A stretch of DNA of 64,000 nucleotides. Origin: Acholoe squamosa. Its lineage: Eukaryota > Annelida > Polychaeta > Phyllodocida > Polynoidae. The notes below the pieces were generated by a model, which was not told the DNA's origin, searched no databases, and saw nothing but the letters and a program-made list of their open reading frames with translations. The DNA lies in assembly GCA_949317995.1 (NCBI GenBank), contig OX439043.1:59227339-59291338 (forward strand), given 5' to 3'. The stretch's first letter is position 1, and every line of letters begins with the position of its first letter. Shown piece by piece: positions 18,566-48,946 of this stretch. The position numbers were made by a program, and so were the translations under genes.

Positions 18566-18647
18566 GGACTCATGGTGTAATGGTTAGCACATGAGACTCA
18601 GGATCCCAGCACTGTCTGGTGTGTGGGTACGAATCCCATATGGGACA
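18566..18647 (+). tRNA. tRNA-like relic
   Basis: CATGGTGTAATGGTTAGCAC (box A-like), a possible loop CTCAGGA, an enlarged variable region and a good box B (GGGTACGAATCCCA). The 5' and 3' ends do not form an acceptor stem, so it is a relic. Confidence 0.5.
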
Positions 18648-36094: not shown

Positions 36095-38312
36095 TCAATT
36101 CTCTTTAGAGCACTTGTTCCAGAGGTGGTTGCCCCTGTATAGCGGGCTACGCCGATAAATGTCTCGGATTACCCTACTGATCTTGAGTCGTATTTTGTCA
36201 TTGCTGCGCAAGAGTCTCGTTGGTTGTACAATCTTATCCAAATTCCTTGACTGCTGGTAGATCCATGACAGCATTTGTCTGCTTCTTCTTGTTTCAAGCT
36301 TCTCCACCTCATATTCGACATGGAGGTCTATCACTCGTCCATCCCTACAGTCCCATATCTTGGAACAAACTCTCAAAGCGTCATTTTGCACCGTTTGCAG
36401 TCGATCATTTACCCATGCTGGTCCTCCATCCATTACCATTAGACAGTATTCCAATATCGGCCTGATCAATACTTGGTACACCTGGTATGTTTTTTTGGCA
36501 TCTGTATGGGCTCTCACATTTTTCAGCTGACTCACTCTAAGTCTTGCTAGGTTCAGCACTTTCTTGCATTGGGATTTGAAGCTAAGCATACTATCTATCA
36601 ACACTCCTAGGTTGTTGAATACTTCCACTGCCTCCAATTTGCTGCCTTTCAGATACATAAGCAAATATCCCATGCAAGTGGACATTTGCATTTATGTTAT
36701 GGCTACACTGGTTTGAAAGCTTTTAAGTAGAGAAATTCAACAAAATTTAGCTCTGTTTATTGCAGCAGGTCACATGATCATCAGCCATTGAATATGGCCA
36801 CATATTGTATTCCATCCCCCCATTGAATACGACATGTCCAGTACTGTTCTATAGTAACGATCATATCTGCCATGACATAAAAGTATTTATCAGTCAAGTC
36901 AGGTTTTGCGTTATTCCCATGACACCATAGTACCTTTGTTTTTTCTGTGTTGATCATCAGCCTGTTCAAGGTACACCATTCATCAAGATCGTTAAGGGCT
37001 GACTGCATGAGTAGAATATTTCTGTCAATGTCGGTGGAGTTAGCAACCAGTGCTAAGTCATCGGCGTACATGTAGTGTGACACATTATCTAGGACATTTT
37101 TTACATCATCGATATAGCACAAGAACAGCAGAGCCCCCAATACGGAGCCTTGGGGGACTCAGCATGGGACCTCCCTCTTCAGTGATTTCATTCCATTTGC
37201 CTGTGTAACTTGTTGTCTTAACTGTAGGTAGCTGCTGATCCAGCCAACTGTGCTATTATCACAACCTAGTTTTCTCATTTTTGCTACCAGCCTTAGGTGG
37301 TTTACACAGTCAAATGCTTTTCGTAGGTCCACAAATACCACTAGTCTGAGTTCCTCTTTATTTTGTGCTTCATAAAGCTCTGTGGTAAGTCCCAACACTG
37401 CATCTCCGGTGCATCGTCCAGGGATGAATCTATACTGCCTGTCAGAATACAGCCCATTGTTTAGCAAGTGTGTCATAACTTGCCCATGCACTCCCTTTTC
37501 AAGCACTTTGGAGCAGGCATTCAGCAGCGTGAATGGTCTCCAGTTCCCGACTACAGACAGATTCCCACTTTTGGGGAGTGGTACTATCAACCCAGTCTTC
37601 CATTCTTTTGGGAACGTTCATGATGCTATGCTACTATGTGCTCCACCCCTGATGACTTTGTACCATCAAGCTCACGTGCTATTTTGTTAAAAATAATTTT
37701 TTATGTAGTTTGCCGTGTCCTTTTGCTCTACATACTGGCCATTTTTATCCATTAAGCTCAGTTTAACTTCAGGCTCCACTCCCTTCCACACGAAGTTTAG
37801 CTCCTTCCAGAATCTCTTTGGATCATTACGGTATCTTTCAAGTAGGCCTAAGACATTATTTCGCACATTCTCATTCATTCTGACTCTGATGACTTTGTTC
37901 AGTCTATTGACTTCCCTCTTGTGTACTGCTCTTAAAGCTGCATTTGCCTTACGTGCCTTGCGAAAGTGTTTCTTTTTCCTCCGGGTGATTGTTTTCACAT
38001 TGTCTGGCAGCCCCTTCCGGCAATTGGCAGGTACCTTAAAAGTCCTAATAGGGTGGTGTACATCCAGATAAGCCTTGATGTGGTCAATGCCCGCATTATA
38101 GAGGATGTTGGGATCAGTGCCAGGTGGATGAGCACCTGGGTCCCAATCCCCCATTTGAGCTTGTAACTCTTCAGAATCGTAGTTTTTATACGATCTGCCT
38201 GTGATTTCTTTCTTAGTGTGTCTGAGCCTGGCCTGTTTTTTGTTTTTTTTACCACAAACAGAGGCATGTGGTCATTTTGTAAGTCATTAGCTAGTCCAAC
38301 CAGGAGCTTCAT
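36095..38312 (-). pseudogene. CR1/L2-like LINE, 5'-truncated and broken
   Basis: Minus-strand non-LTR retrotransposon. From the 5' side: a linker before the RT (38154-37687, with KRFWKELNFVWKG); then RT palm pieces (37590-37159: VPLPKSGN, NWRPFTLLNACSKVLEK, VFVDLRKAFDCVNH); then VPQGSVLGALLF and the catalytic MYADDLALVA (37140-36781); then the thumb and C-terminal region (36691-36095: LGVLIDSMLSFK, YQVLIRPILEYC). The endonuclease is absent. The RT finger region appears deleted: only about 25 codons lie between the linker and FPKEWKTGLIVPLPK, with stops. An in-frame TGA stands just before VPQGS. The C-terminal part is in another frame, with about 180 bp of unrelated sequence around 36720-36890. 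The 5' piece (38312-38150) is in a third frame. The clade is judged from motif style only. Confidence 0.88.

Positions 38313-43897: not shown

Positions 43898-43945
<48 letters not shown>
43898..43945. repeat. (TA)n at the left edge of the YR retrotransposon
   Basis: TA array that ends where the element's A1 repeat starts. TA units also follow the right end (48851-48864), so the element inserted within a TA microsatellite. Confidence 0.85.
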
Positions 43946-43948
<3 letters not shown>

Positions 43949-44151
43949 AACTATATACACCCGTGTATATTTATATAATTAGCCGCGGACGGTTAGGGAC
44001 TACTTGCAGCGCGGAGTGGTATCTATGAGGTCATCGATGACGTCATGGTAAATATTCCTCCAGTATATAAGGGGGAGTTTTCATGTAACGGTCAATTGGC
44101 TCGATTCACCTGGACAGGTAACACCACGCTGGGTGTTTCCTTGATTTTTAA
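43946..44151 (+). repeat. Split direct repeat A1, with promoter motifs
   Basis: Contains near its tip an 8-bp inverted pair ATATACAC/GTGTATAT, a consensus CRE (TGACGTCA, 44038-44045) and a TATA box (TATATAA, 44064-44070). By position these would drive the element's transcript. Identical by eye to A2. Confidence 0.85.
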
Positions 44152-44190
44152 CGGTTTTTTCCGTTTTATTGCTTGAATATCGGCTCAAGC

Positions 44191-45246
44191 ATGGGGAGAA
44201 AGACTGCTGCAGGTGCTAAGAAGAAAGGTTCGTCAAAAAAATCGGCTAAATCGGCTAAAACGAACCAAGAATCGGCCAATTTGGGATCTTCGAGCAGCTT
44301 AAACTCTCTATGTGGGGGTCTGGAGCCCTTACAGCCTATTATGCCACAGGCTAAAGAGAGTGAGACTGCTGACCAGACGAGGCTAGACTTGATGGAAGAA
44401 GACCTTGTGGATATAAAGAATATGCTGCGAGACGTTATTGCCAGCCAAGGGGCCCGTAAAGACGAGATGAATCCATTGAGCGGACCGGACAGCGGGTCGG
44501 CGGGAGCACGTGCATCTGTATACAAACAAGATTCGAGAGACGCGAATCCAAGGCGACGGGGGCGTGGTCTACAGCGGGACGTTGACAACGATAGCGTCCA
44601 TAGCAACCAAGATGGCGGCGAGTGGACCAGAGCGGGACGTAGAGGTCGTCGGACGAGATCAAAATCATCGTATACTGCTCGTCATAGGAGTCCCAGCTCG
44701 TCAAGAGGGTCGTCAATGGACTCGTCAATTCATCGCCATCACGCCAAGCAAAAAATTGGTGAGTTTGACCACGAACAATTCATTAAAAAACGTGAAAAGG
44801 TCAACAGCATTGAGAAACTTGTATTGGTCAATATCAAATTCATTATAGATTATTACAAGGATGGGGACAATGTGGAGGGCATGCTCAGGCACCTCCAAAT
44901 GTTGGTTGAGAAGTCGGATACGAAGATTTTCACTGTAAAAGCCTTAGTAGCATATGACAAGTCCGTTAGGGACAGGGCCAATACTGATGGTTTAGATGCC
45001 TTTGCCATGATTGAAAATTCGGATATTCTCCGTCACTTGTCCTATGATGGGACAGTACAGGCCCAGAAGGCTTATTCAACTAAGTCAAAAAATCCTGGAA
45101 AATTTAAGGTATCTACAAACTCATGTTATGCCTTTAACAGGGCTGAGGGATGTACTAGGGATCCCTGCAAGTATAGACATGTATGTAGTTCATGTACCAA
45201 ATCAGGCCACAGTAGAGTGGATTGTCAAGTTAATAAGTCTGAATAG
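44191..45246 (+). CDS. Gag-like protein of the YR retrotransposon
   Basis: About 351 residues from the ATG after the A1 leader. The N-terminal half is basic and low in complexity (KK, SS and RR clusters), the middle is helical, and the C-terminus carries two metal-binding motifs: a CCCH type starting at Cys312 (C-x8-C-x5-C-x3-H), directly followed by a CCHC knuckle (CSSCTKSGHSRVDC). Nucleic-acid binding in a particle-like complex is the expected role in this order. It was matched by position and zinc motifs, not by overall similarity. Confidence 0.8.
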   Translation: MGRKTAAGAKKKGSSKKSAKSAKTNQESANLGSSSSLNSLCGGLEPLQPIMPQAKESETADQTRLDLMEEDLVDIKNMLRDVIASQGARKDEMNPLSGPDSGSAGARASVYKQDSRDANPRRRGRGLQRDVDNDSVHSNQDGGEWTRAGRRGRRTRSKSSYTARHRSPSSSRGSSMDSSIHRHHAKQKIGEFDHEQFIKKREKVNSIEKLVLVNIKFIIDYYKDGDNVEGMLRHLQMLVEKSDTKIFTVKALVAYDKSVRDRANTDGLDAFAMIENSDILRHLSYDGTVQAQKAYSTKSKNPGKFKVSTNSCYAFNRAEGCTRDPCKYRHVCSSCTKSGHSRVDCQVNKSE

Positions 45247-45288
45247 GATTTTACAGGTGGCCAGGTTCCTATATGTGATAGTGTGTCG

Positions 45289-47301
45289 ATGCCAAAATCG
45301 TGTATAGTAGGTTTGGTAGATCCTGGTCCGCCCCCACCCGTTGCTCCAGCTCAGGGTGTTGGTGTGTGTAATGCTGGAGTAGTAGAACCTGTCCCCCCTG
45401 GTGGTTTCAAGGTGGCAAGTTTACAAACTAAATTTGGTAATGATATTAATATTGAAGCCAACTCTGTTGGTTCGGATGTATCATATATTAGCCCAGTACA
45501 GGGCAAGGTTAGACCATTTTTTACTGTTGCTATAAAAAATTTACCTAGCATCGAAGTGTATGATAGCTGTATAAATGGTGTGTGCAATTGTGTTCACTAT
45601 ATCAATGGGAAAAATTCCCAAATTTTACCTTGCAGAGTTGCCCCATTCTTAACCCAAAAAGGAGTTATTAATATAAATGATAAAGAGGCACTATTCTTAT
45701 GGCAAGGCTTTGTTGAGGGGTTCAGGATAGTGGATCCTGACTGCAATACTTCTTATGATTGCAGAAATTATAAGTCAATCCTCGAGGGAAAATTCTATAA
45801 TGAGTACTGTGGTATATTGCTAGATGAACTAGAGGCTGATCTAGTCTCTAAGAGTGCAGATAAACCCCGTTGTATCCATGCTCTAGGTGGTGTAGAAAAA
45901 TCAAATGGAAAGTTAAGACCCATAACTGACTGTAGTATGCCTGATAAAATATCTATTAATAATTTTATGGAGACTACTAGCTCGGCATTTTCTTATAATA
46001 GTATTAGCACGGTGACTGCTCAATTGAATAAGAACAATTTCATGAGTGTTGTGGATTTAAAGTCAGCTTATAGGTCTATAAATGTGTATGCACCTCACAC
46101 TTCCATGCAAGGTTTCAGATGGAATTTTGGGCATGGGGAGGAGTATTATGTGAGTAACAGGTTAACTTTTGGCCTGAAATGTGCCCCGTATATCTTTAAT
46201 AGAATTTCTGATTTTATTGTAGAGGTGGCAAAATTCTACGGTGTAGAAAAAATTGTAAATTATCTGGACGATTTTATCGTAATTGCTGATACTTATGATG
46301 AGTGTCTTAGACAGAGGAATTTATTAATGGAGTGTATGGCGTACATGGGTTTTGTAGTATCCAAAGAAAAGGTGACCGACCCATCTCAATTTTGTAAATT
46401 CTTAGGCATTAACATAGATTCAGTTAAGTTGGAACTGTCTTTGCCTATTGAAAAGGTTGAAAAAATGGAGAATCTCTTATTAGATAATGTTAATAAGAAA
46501 TTTATTTCTAAAAAGAACTTAGAGAGAATAGGTGGTTTAATGTCTTTCTGCTCGCAGGTGGTCAAGGGTGGTAGAACTTTTAGTAGGCGAATTTTCGATC
46601 TCTGCGCTCGGGCACGGCCCGGTGGTTATATTAGGGTTTCAGCTTGCACTCGCCAAGACATTCAGTGGTGGCTGGATTTTTGTAGAGTTTTTAACTGTAA
46701 GAGGTTAATTCTAAATGATGTTATTGATACACCTATGTACTCCGATTCATCTATTAGGGGCTTTGGAGCATGGATGGGAGATGATTATTTGTATGGTGAC
46801 TGGACTTCTCATGATAAATTCAACCTAGGTTCAGGTCATTTTTCCCTCCCTCCAATGTTGGATGTTCTACAAAATCATCATAGAAATATAAATGTATACG
46901 AGTTATATCCAGTCATGGTTGGTTTGAAACGTTGGATTTCGAATTATAGAAATAAAAGAATACACTGTATTACTGATAATATGCAGGTTCTAGCTATGAT
47001 AAATACCGGTAGGTCAAAAAATAAGCTTTGTATGGAATGGCTTAGAGAAATTTTTTGGCTTTGTTTCATTAATAATGTGGAGGTGTATGCAACTTATATT
47101 AGGTCAGAGGACAATATCCTGGCCGACCAGCTATCGAGACTTGCATACAAGGGTATGCCTGGTAAATGTATAACTTCTCTCCGTGAAAATGATATGTGTT
47201 GCTTTAATTCCAGAATGGAAAAGGTTACAAAAAAGAAAAGAGTCTCTTTTAGCGAAGGGTGTGTCAGAGAATACGAGGAGGGCAAGGAAACAACAACTTA
47301 A
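45289..47301 (+). CDS. Reverse transcriptase-RNase H of the YR retrotransposon
   Basis: About 670 residues. RT motifs: GKLRPITDCS, SVVDLKSAYRSI, LTFGLKCAPYIF and the catalytic YLDD at about residue 325. An RNase H domain follows, with YSDSS (Asp about 486), an ELYPVMVGLKRW helix, TDNMQVLAMI and EDNILADQLSR. It copies the element RNA and removes the template strand. The frame ends soon after RNase H, so no methyltransferase domain fits. It overlaps the next ORF by about 110 nt in another frame. Confidence 0.92.
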   Translation: MPKSCIVGLVDPGPPPPVAPAQGVGVCNAGVVEPVPPGGFKVASLQTKFGNDINIEANSVGSDVSYISPVQGKVRPFFTVAIKNLPSIEVYDSCINGVCNCVHYINGKNSQILPCRVAPFLTQKGVININDKEALFLWQGFVEGFRIVDPDCNTSYDCRNYKSILEGKFYNEYCGILLDELEADLVSKSADKPRCIHALGGVEKSNGKLRPITDCSMPDKISINNFMETTSSAFSYNSISTVTAQLNKNNFMSVVDLKSAYRSINVYAPHTSMQGFRWNFGHGEEYYVSNRLTFGLKCAPYIFNRISDFIVEVAKFYGVEKIVNYLDDFIVIADTYDECLRQRNLLMECMAYMGFVVSKEKVTDPSQFCKFLGINIDSVKLELSLPIEKVEKMENLLLDNVNKKFISKKNLERIGGLMSFCSQVVKGGRTFSRRIFDLCARARPGGYIRVSACTRQDIQWWLDFCRVFNCKRLILNDVIDTPMYSDSSIRGFGAWMGDDYLYGDWTSHDKFNLGSGHFSLPPMLDVLQNHHRNINVYELYPVMVGLKRWISNYRNKRIHCITDNMQVLAMINTGRSKNKLCMEWLREIFWLCFINNVEVYATYIRSEDNILADQLSRLAYKGMPGKCITSLRENDMCCFNSRMEKVTKKKRVSFSEGCVREYEEGKETTT

Positions 47302-48136
47302 AAGGTACAAAAAATTTTGTGATAAATTTAATTTACCTAAATTTCCTTGTTCTCCCTCACAGGCTGCTACATATGCAGTATATTTATCTAGTTATATGAA
47401 ACCTTCTTCTGTGAGAAATTATTTATCATCCATTTGGTATCATCAAAAACTTAGTGGTGGCTTAGACCATAGCAGTAATTTCATGCTAAAAAAGGTTTTG
47501 GATGGTATTGATAGAAATTATTCTGTTCCGGCTAGGGTTACTCACCCATTGAGTCCAAGAGAAATGTTATGTATCAGATCGTATTTGGATCTCTCCAACA
47601 GGGCTGACTTGAAGTTCTGGTTAGCTATTCTGTTATGTTATAGAGGTGTCCTTAGAATAGGACATGTTGTATCTTCTCCTCATACACTACGGGTAGGTGA
47701 TGTAAAAATGTTTAAAAGTTATGCTAGTCTTCGCATTAAGACCTCTAAAACTGATCAACTTGGTGCCCATGCGTTTAACATATACTTATGTAGGGATGAT
47801 ACCTCATTGTTATGTCCTTGTAGAGAGTTAGGAAAATTGTGCACAGGTAGGGCTGTGAATGATTATTTATTTAAAATTAATGGTTTTCCTCTACAGTACC
47901 AATATATTAATTCTAGACTGAAGTCTTTATCTATACGTGCTGGTATCAAGGGTTCGGTCTCCACCCATTCACTTAGGCACGGTGGGGCTACTATGTTAAA
48001 GGACGCAGGACTGAGTATAGAGTCTATTAAGAGGAAGGTAAATTGGAAATCTAATTCTGTTTTTAAATATTTACACAACCATAAAATTGAACTTTTGGAG
48101 TTAGATAGACTTTGCCAATCTCAATTGCATTGCTGA
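47189..48136 (+). CDS. Tyrosine recombinase of the YR retrotransposon
   Basis: About 315 residues, phage-integrase fold. An N-terminal SAM-like core-binding part (SPSQAATYAVYLSSYMKPSS, residues about 55-75) is followed by the catalytic domain with Arg in GVLRIGH (about 156), HSLRHGG (His260, Arg263) and the nucleophile Tyr in FKYLHNH (about 294). It would insert a circular DNA copy by recombination, which explains the missing target duplication. It begins inside the RT frame, so it needs a separate start or internal initiation. Confidence 0.92.
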   Translation: MICVALIPEWKRLQKRKESLLAKGVSENTRRARKQQLKRYKKFCDKFNLPKFPCSPSQAATYAVYLSSYMKPSSVRNYLSSIWYHQKLSGGLDHSSNFMLKKVLDGIDRNYSVPARVTHPLSPREMLCIRSYLDLSNRADLKFWLAILLCYRGVLRIGHVVSSPHTLRVGDVKMFKSYASLRIKTSKTDQLGAHAFNIYLCRDDTSLLCPCRELGKLCTGRAVNDYLFKINGFPLQYQYINSRLKSLSIRAGIKGSVSTHSLRHGGATMLKDAGLSIESIKRKVNWKSNSVFKYLHNHKIELLELDRLCQSQLHC

Positions 48137-48180
48137 TTGGTATGTGTTTTCACATGTGTTTGGCGTGTTTTATGTGTTTT

Positions 48181-48360
48181 GGCATGTATGGTGCTGATAG
48201 CCCCAAGGTCAGTAACCCACCAAACTCATGTGTTTCTGTGATGGATCATTTATTACTTGTACATTATATTAATACCTTTTATTACCGGTACATCCTAGTA
48301 TTTATTGATAGCTTATCTATTTATTACCGGTATAACTTTCCCTGGTAGCGAGATAACTTA
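48181..48360 (+). repeat. Split direct repeat B1
   Basis: 180 bp, GGCATGTATGG to GAGATAACTTA, joined directly to A2. TTTATTACCGGTA occurs twice within it. Confidence 0.9.
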
Positions 48361-48566
48361 TGGAACTATATACACCCGTGTATATTTATATAATTAGCCG
48401 CGGACGGTTAGGGACTACTTGCAGCGCGGAGTGGTATCTATGAGGTCATCGATGACGTCATGGTAAATATTCCTCCAGTATATAAGGGGGAGTTTTCATG
48501 TAACGGTCAATTGGCTCGATTCACCTGGACAGGTAACACCACGCTGGGTGTTTCCTTGATTTTTAA
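48361..48566 (+). repeat. Split direct repeat A2
   Basis: 206 bp, same as A1 including CRE and TATA box. A 104-bp spacer separates it from B2. Confidence 0.9.
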
Positions 48567-48670
48567 ATCTTACTGTTATTACTATTGTTGTTACTATACT
48601 ATTGTTATTATATTATGCATTTTACTGGCTATGCTTATTGTCAACTAATTATTATAGTTGTTTTAATAAA

Positions 48671-48850
48671 GGCATGTATGGTGCTGATAGCCCCAAGGTC
48701 AGTAACCCACCAAACTCATGTGTTTCTGTGATGGATCATTTATTACTTGTACATTATATTAATACCTTTTATTACCGGTACATCCTAGTATTTATTGATA
48801 GCTTATCTATTTATTACCGGTATAACTTTCCCTGGTAGCGAGATAACTTA
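48671..48850 (+). repeat. Split direct repeat B2 (right end)
   Basis: 180 bp, same as B1; followed by a short TA run that belongs to the target. Confidence 0.9.
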
Positions 48851-48946
48851 TATATATATATATATAAAAGACACCTGGGGTTATATGGGTTTGAAGCTCT
48901 ACATGGCCCAGTGCTAGGCTCTCCATCCCGGTTATGGCAGACAAAT

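Follow-up and report, generated by a model that had tools for sequence, protein, structure and literature searches.

Among the retrotransposons that encode a tyrosine recombinase (YR), Ngaro elements are described, in the accessible parts of the papers cited here and below, as lacking a methyltransferase (MT; PMC4157794, PMC3266345, PMC9210276, PMC3783388) and as carrying repeats in the order A1...B1A2B2 (PMC4157794, PMC9210276, PMC8547959); the absent MT together with internal repeats after the YR gene sets them apart (PMC4157794). PAT elements also have split direct repeats and include Pat1-like forms with a zinc-finger Gag (PMC4157794), but carry an MT, while DIRS1-like elements combine an MT with inverted repeats and integrate through a 3-bp core, leaving the target unduplicated (PMC3266345). 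VIPER-like elements, a separate clade known from kinetoplastids, likewise lack an MT and show A1, followed by B1, A2 and B2 at the 3' end (PMC6681497). Here, we analyzed a stretch of 64,000 nucleotides from the polynoid annelid Acholoe squamosa (contig OX439043.1; "the window"), in which positions 43947-48850 of the forward strand hold a complete YR retrotransposon of the layout A1-[gag-pol-YR]-B1-A2-spacer-B2.

The best joint explanation, to which we assign a probability of roughly 0.7, is a young and apparently intact Ngaro-type element that integrated via a TAT core into a (TA)n tract and produces Gag-Pol by stop-codon readthrough. Judged from its sequence, the element has the anatomy of an ordinary Ngaro and is clearly associated with (TA)n, and comparison supports a putative readthrough layout. 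It has in common with the described Ngaro elements gag, reverse transcriptase and RNase H (RT/RH), YR, the missing MT and the order A1-[open reading frames (ORFs)]-B1A2B2 (PMC8547959, PMC9210276, PMC4157794), whereas (TA)n sites and a single in-frame gag/pol stop are unmentioned in the accessible parts of that literature. New are the (TA)n left flank with its TAT core, present in 21 of 21 copies, and the gag/pol frame shared across one UAG. Readthrough in Ngaro elements, their targeting of (TA)n and long arrays of them were all absent from the reports returned by a literature search, although subscription papers lay mostly outside its reach and absence from print is not shown by it.

The split repeats delimit the element sharply. 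A1 (43947-44151) is preceded by a (TA)n microsatellite, the presumed target (43898-43946), whose last three bases (43944-43946) form the TAT core common to the element. B1 (48181-48361, including the TAT core at 48359-48361) is followed directly by A2 (48362-48566), a 104-nt spacer (48567-48670) and B2 (48671-48851), and an 18-nt (TA)n run (48849-48866) overlaps the last TAT core (48849-48851). Counted with the shared TAT, A1 (43944-44151) and A2 (48359-48566) are identical at 208 of 208 positions, and B1 and B2 at 181 of 181. An earlier sequence-only reading, which had bounded a whole YR retrotransposon with all parts in order and identical repeat pairs at 43946-48850, was hence correct within about one base. 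Inverted terminal repeats with an internal complementary region, as in DIRS1, were not found in the element, whose long repeats are direct, and the same repeat order recurs at 20 other loci of the genome.

Between the repeats lie, all on the forward strand, a gag ORF of 351 aa from its first ATG (44191-45246), closed by the single in-frame UAG (45244-45246), a pol ORF of 684 aa in the gag frame (45247-47301), and a YR ORF of 320 aa from stop to stop (47174-48136, first ATG at 47189), which overlaps the end of pol in another frame. Pfam matched RVT_1, including the YLDDF motif, at 45895-46416 (E 2.2e-19) and Phage_integrase in the YR ORF (E 1.3e-11), while the RNase H match (RVT_3, 46891-47142) was weak and under the Pfam cut-off (E 0.012). 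In an alignment of the window element with two outside elements, YLDDF, pol residues D500, E552, D577 and D627 and YR residues R161, K192, H265, R268, W291 and Y299 are invariant; we take these to be the expected RNase H residues and the expected catalytic residues of the recombinase, respectively. As the sequence-only reading had proposed, the C-terminal part of Gag carries two zinc motifs, recognized by eye as C-x8-C-x4-C-x3-H and C-x2-C-x4-H-x4-C and presumably of the CCCH and CCHC type. Its claim of a missing MT held as well: Dam/MT (PF05869) was unmatched in the element's proteins at E up to 1 in the Pfam scan, while the same profile matched the pol proteins of loci L040 and L042 (4.8e-8 and 1.9e-8) and, with 150 of 637 candidates scored, at least 69 sites across the genome. 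The host thus also houses DIRS-type families whose frames are long and open, among them loci L040-L043.

The number and likeness of the copies speak for recent activity. In the 1.48-Gb host assembly (63 contigs), at least 27 matches, spread over 26 loci, span 4,600 bases or more with 86-100% identity (35 matches listed), and pol was found at no fewer than 65 places, all with at least 90% identity, 30 of them within one array; with 26 of 4507 and 65 of 20814 candidates scored, respectively, these counts are lower bounds. For comparison, we used a set of 21 copies, i.e., the window copy and 20 fetched loci, in which one tandem dimer counts once and from which the five most diverged of the 26 near-full-length loci were left out. 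Summed over this set, the comparison of A1 with A2 and of B1 with B2 (about 7.9 kb) shows 13 mismatches and 3 gapped bases, and nine copies are without any difference. Since the repeat pairs are near-identical within copies, the insertions are young, as had been proposed for the window copy, and the identity of 86-92% between most copies reflects subfamilies. So many young copies in one assembly offer a clean view of YR retrotransposon integration, with a TAT core, (TA)n and no duplication.

How YR retrotransposons might express Pol is left open in the accessible parts of the literature, and the window family bears on this question. Here, gag and pol share one frame and are split by a single TAG in all 21 copies, and an open frame of exactly 684 aa is kept at 63 of the 65 scored pol places, with a stop inside in three of them. 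A relative beside locus L013 retains both TAG and frame at a synonymous divergence (dS) of 2.3 and a nonsynonymous divergence (dN) of 0.21 over 331 pol codons; the stop was thus present while purifying selection acted on pol. The layout extends to other families, as a single in-frame stop separates gag and pol in seven of ten (the window family, L036, L037, L038, L039, L044 and L046), which are not independent but fall into two supported groups of the pol tree; L048, of the L038 family, has UAA in place of UGA. Among the remaining three, L045 and L049 show a -1 overlap and L047 a gap, and four MT-bearing elements have pol overlapping gag in the -1 frame instead of an in-frame stop. The overlap of L049 holds an in-frame A_AAA_AAG (about 1985-2000 of the reversed strand), and its nearest relatives are the stop-type L036 and L039 (46-48% identity), so that closely related families appear to have switched between modes of recoding. 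Two TAG codons, listed as internal to pol in 19 of 24 matches of the L044 family, were discarded as a candidate, since in L044 itself they coincide with or follow the end of pol.

On this reading, termination at the one in-frame stop would yield Gag and its readthrough Gag-Pol, while YR would be translated separately in its overlapping frame, perhaps starting at ATG 47189. A comparable arrangement, with gag and pol in one frame and UAG between them, is described for the gammaretrovirus MuLV in the part of that report accessible to us (PMC4178896), but the likeness is one of layout only; any stimulatory structure in the window element would be no more than putative. A possible, though rather unlikely, alternative is that Pol is made by reinitiation, splicing or an internal start and that the common frame is left over from a once fused gag-pol. 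The position of the first Met in pol bears on both options: it is residue 15 in the window family, 16 in L037, 31 in L036 and L039, 71 in L038, 73 in L044 and 215 in L046. Because the first Met of the window family comes only 15 codons past the UAG, reinitiation could operate there; this ATG, however, is absent from the L013 relative, although the latter carries another Met at residue 9. Moreover, protein sequence is conserved ahead of the first Met elsewhere, with 15 of 30 residues identical between L036 and L039 (dN/dS 0.40), 27 of 72 between L038 and L044 (proportions of nonsynonymous and synonymous differences, pN 0.43 vs. pS 0.89), and a match of the window element to the first 214 residues of L046 pol (E 6e-9). 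This conservation points to stop-codon readthrough, and the persistence of stop and frame at saturated dS also argues against the alternative.

Several observations nevertheless weigh against readthrough, some of them in favor of reinitiation. In the window family the ATG follows 42 nt after the UAG, and the 14 codons between are unconstrained (dN/dS 1.08 vs. L031 and 0.79 vs. the L013 neighbor), while a first Met as late as observed would occur by chance with probabilities of 0.03 in L046, 0.12 in L038 and 0.26 in L044. Stop contexts vary between families (UAG G, UGA C, UGA U, UGA A). In L001, L003 and L047, gag and pol do not overlap and occupy different frames; gag of L037 and L046 is interrupted upstream, and L051, an L046-family copy with a whole gag, has a displaced pol. 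Downstream of the UAG, the window family has a strong fold (z -2.3 to -2.9), but this fold differs in L031 and shows no significant covariation (167 of 500 shuffles were equally good), and five other families are without a strong fold after the stop (z -1.5 to 1.6). A conserved RNA stimulator after the stop accordingly received no support, given the lack of significant covariation and of a counterpart in the other families tested. Taken over all families, readthrough appears to be the simplest account of the whole, short of proof for the window element itself.

The second peculiarity of the family concerns its integration sites. In all 21 copies, 12-55 nt of (TA)n lie immediately against the left end, and an intact AACT-TAT right end followed by a TA run is found in 19; in L023 the right end has lost one base before the TA. 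Five further loci (L053-L057) also have (TA)n at their right end. As background, 12 nt of TA stand directly before only 318 of the 64,000 window positions (0.5%), a count that includes the flanks of the element itself. The junctions read AACT-TAT-GGAACT at B|A, TAT-GGAACT at the left end and AACT-TAT at the right end, and an exchange over a 3-bp core would leave this TAT at both ends and at the B|A junction; a junction of 3 bp is also described for DIRS1 in the accessible part of the source (PMC3266345). According to the published model, the RNA would be reverse-transcribed and annealing between A and B repeats would yield a circle with TAT at its B|A junction, of which AACT-TAT-GGAACT at B1|A2 is presumably a copy. 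YR could then recombine the TAT core of the circle with a TAT inside a (TA)n tract, which would explain why no target duplication arises.

Targeting of (TA)n remains a reading of flanking sequences, and two points run counter to it, namely the right flank of L017, which is not (TA)n, and L044 of another family, where long TA runs lie about 40 nt outside the left repeat (L044 1-207). A very unlikely alternative is that the TA flanks are made by the element, or that copies simply survive in neutral DNA. Microsatellites are indeed tolerant sites, and the copies examined were found by similarity only, with the five most diverged near-full-length loci left out. Yet the B1|A2 junction is free of (TA)n, the lengths of the TA runs vary between copies and between sides, and one copy each of the L036, L039 and L046 families is not TA-flanked, which together speak against this alternative. 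This reading, like that of Pol expression, becomes testable with small reporters.

With RT and RNase H followed by YR, no MT, and split direct repeats whose internal pair follows YR, the element shows the traits of Ngaro. Anatomy alone does not settle membership, as VIPER has the same layout and an MT-less form within PAT has been noted (PMC4157794), and the likeness to VIPER is one of description only. The name Ngaro would thus rest on anatomy together with a separation in trees of 16 pol (RT/RH) and 15 YR sequences, in which the window element and 11 other MT-less elements face four MT-bearing ones and from which the broken YR of L037 was left out. The MT-less state of these rows was verified by Pfam, L049, outside the tree, being read only in part; the Dam match passes the cut-off in the protein scan for L040 and L042, whereas for L041 and L043 it does so in the genome search, their protein scores of 25.3 and 27.5 bits lying slightly under the required 28.1. 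Both trees split L040-L043 from the window and the other MT-less elements at 100/100. The pol tree pairs the window element with L046 and then joins it to L037, L038 and L044 (99/99), a grouping which the YR tree does not resolve; in the pol tree, the sequences of the window, L033, L046 and L047 were flagged as having an odd letter make-up, and L001 and L003 as having long branches. The trees hold no named DIRS, PAT, Ngaro or Viper reference, which, together with the shared anatomy of VIPER, weakens the Ngaro assignment.

Very unlikely is a PAT-lineage element that lost its MT and resembles Ngaro by convergence only. Such a loss has been proposed, in the accessible part of the source, for a Caenorhabditis briggsae lineage within PAT (PMC4157794), and split direct repeats also occur in PAT elements, but RT/RH and YR of the window both group with MT-less elements against the four MT-bearing ones at 100/100, evidence limited by the fact that two of these four (L041 and L043) show inverted repeats of DIRS type near the 3' end and that no certain PAT element is included. 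Hardly credible is the lineage between the described groups that the sequence-only reading had suggested on the basis of the CCCH plus CCHC pair in Gag and a pol ending soon after RNase H, as both traits are common to other MT-less elements, the absent MT is normal for Ngaro and part of its definition in the accessible text (PMC4157794), and the window takes no intermediate position but stands on the MT-less side of both trees; what stood of that interpretation is the whole, recent, MT-less YR element with split direct repeats. The zinc pair recurs, by eye, in six other elements (L001, L003, L037, L038, L044 and L051), with a single CCCH motif only in L036, L039 and L049, and is therefore no marker of an intermediate lineage.

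Apart from single insertions, members of the family occur in tandem. On contig C7 (35141628-35285094, at 35 of 84 Mb), a sister subfamily (L033, L034, L035 and L052) forms a head-to-tail [A-ORFs-B] array of 143 kb, which is preceded on the left by (CA)n and an 8-nt TA run and terminates in A-spacer-B followed by (TA)n. Unit lengths of 4369, 4357 and 3198 were observed directly, one unit being internally deleted, and 33 units can be deduced because the A-to-A span of 142,982 equals 30 x 4369 + 2 x 4357 + 3198, a deduction helped by the pol spacings of the genome search and open to an assembly effect on unit number; two units compared are 2 bases and a 12-base gap apart (99.95% alike). L020 (C14:14768300-14778100) is a tandem dimer, A-ORFs-B-A-ORFs-B-A-spacer-B, whose units differ by 4 of 4404 bases, compared with at least 25 to each of five other copies tried, and an origin of the tandem units by insertion of unlike copies is thereby disfavored. 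L056 is a solo A-spacer-B in (TA)n, L057 consists of B followed by two A-spacer-B units in tandem, and nine of 41 near-complete A-spacer-B matches have no B listed just before them. For tandem units and solos alike, the simplest source would be unequal recombination among A repeats, which predicts both products, whereas YR action or multimeric circles could conceivably also have played a part.

Recombination seems to have exchanged ends and coding parts between subfamilies, too. L053, L054 and L055 are mosaic, with B-A-spacer-B ends 99.5-100% identical to the window and a coding part of about 89%, and in L028 B is 99.4% but A only 87% identical. Non-autonomous derivatives were considered and rejected, as the three suspected loci fetched carry pol of another subfamily. 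The 143-kb array itself resembles a retrotransposon becoming a satellite. As a tentative wider picture, which we hold at somewhat below even odds, a Ngaro clade could use its YR and TAT core to land in TA microsatellites as safe sites, and Ngaro elements could widely make Gag-Pol by readthrough, with lineages switching to and from -1 frameshifting like long terminal repeat (LTR) elements and retroviruses, while the B|A junction may let copies pile into satellite-like arrays.

Searches of other databases added few relatives. IMG/VR gave none by protein search or alignment, and its pattern searches returned 0, 0 and 1 record without homology; GTDB gave none by protein search, whereas a pattern search returned three records, of which one is unrelated and L001 and L003 are real relatives. 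The latter two are Ngaro-type elements on short contigs filed as bacterial metagenome-assembled genomes (one named AqS3), most likely reflecting eukaryotic contamination. Elsewhere in the window, a reverse transcriptase broken across several frames and non-LTR-like by eye lies at 36095-38271 on the reverse strand, and a tRNA-Leu(CAG)-like sequence at 18567-18647 on the forward strand (30.4 vs. an Rfam threshold of 29 bits) could be either a gene or the relic of a short interspersed element.

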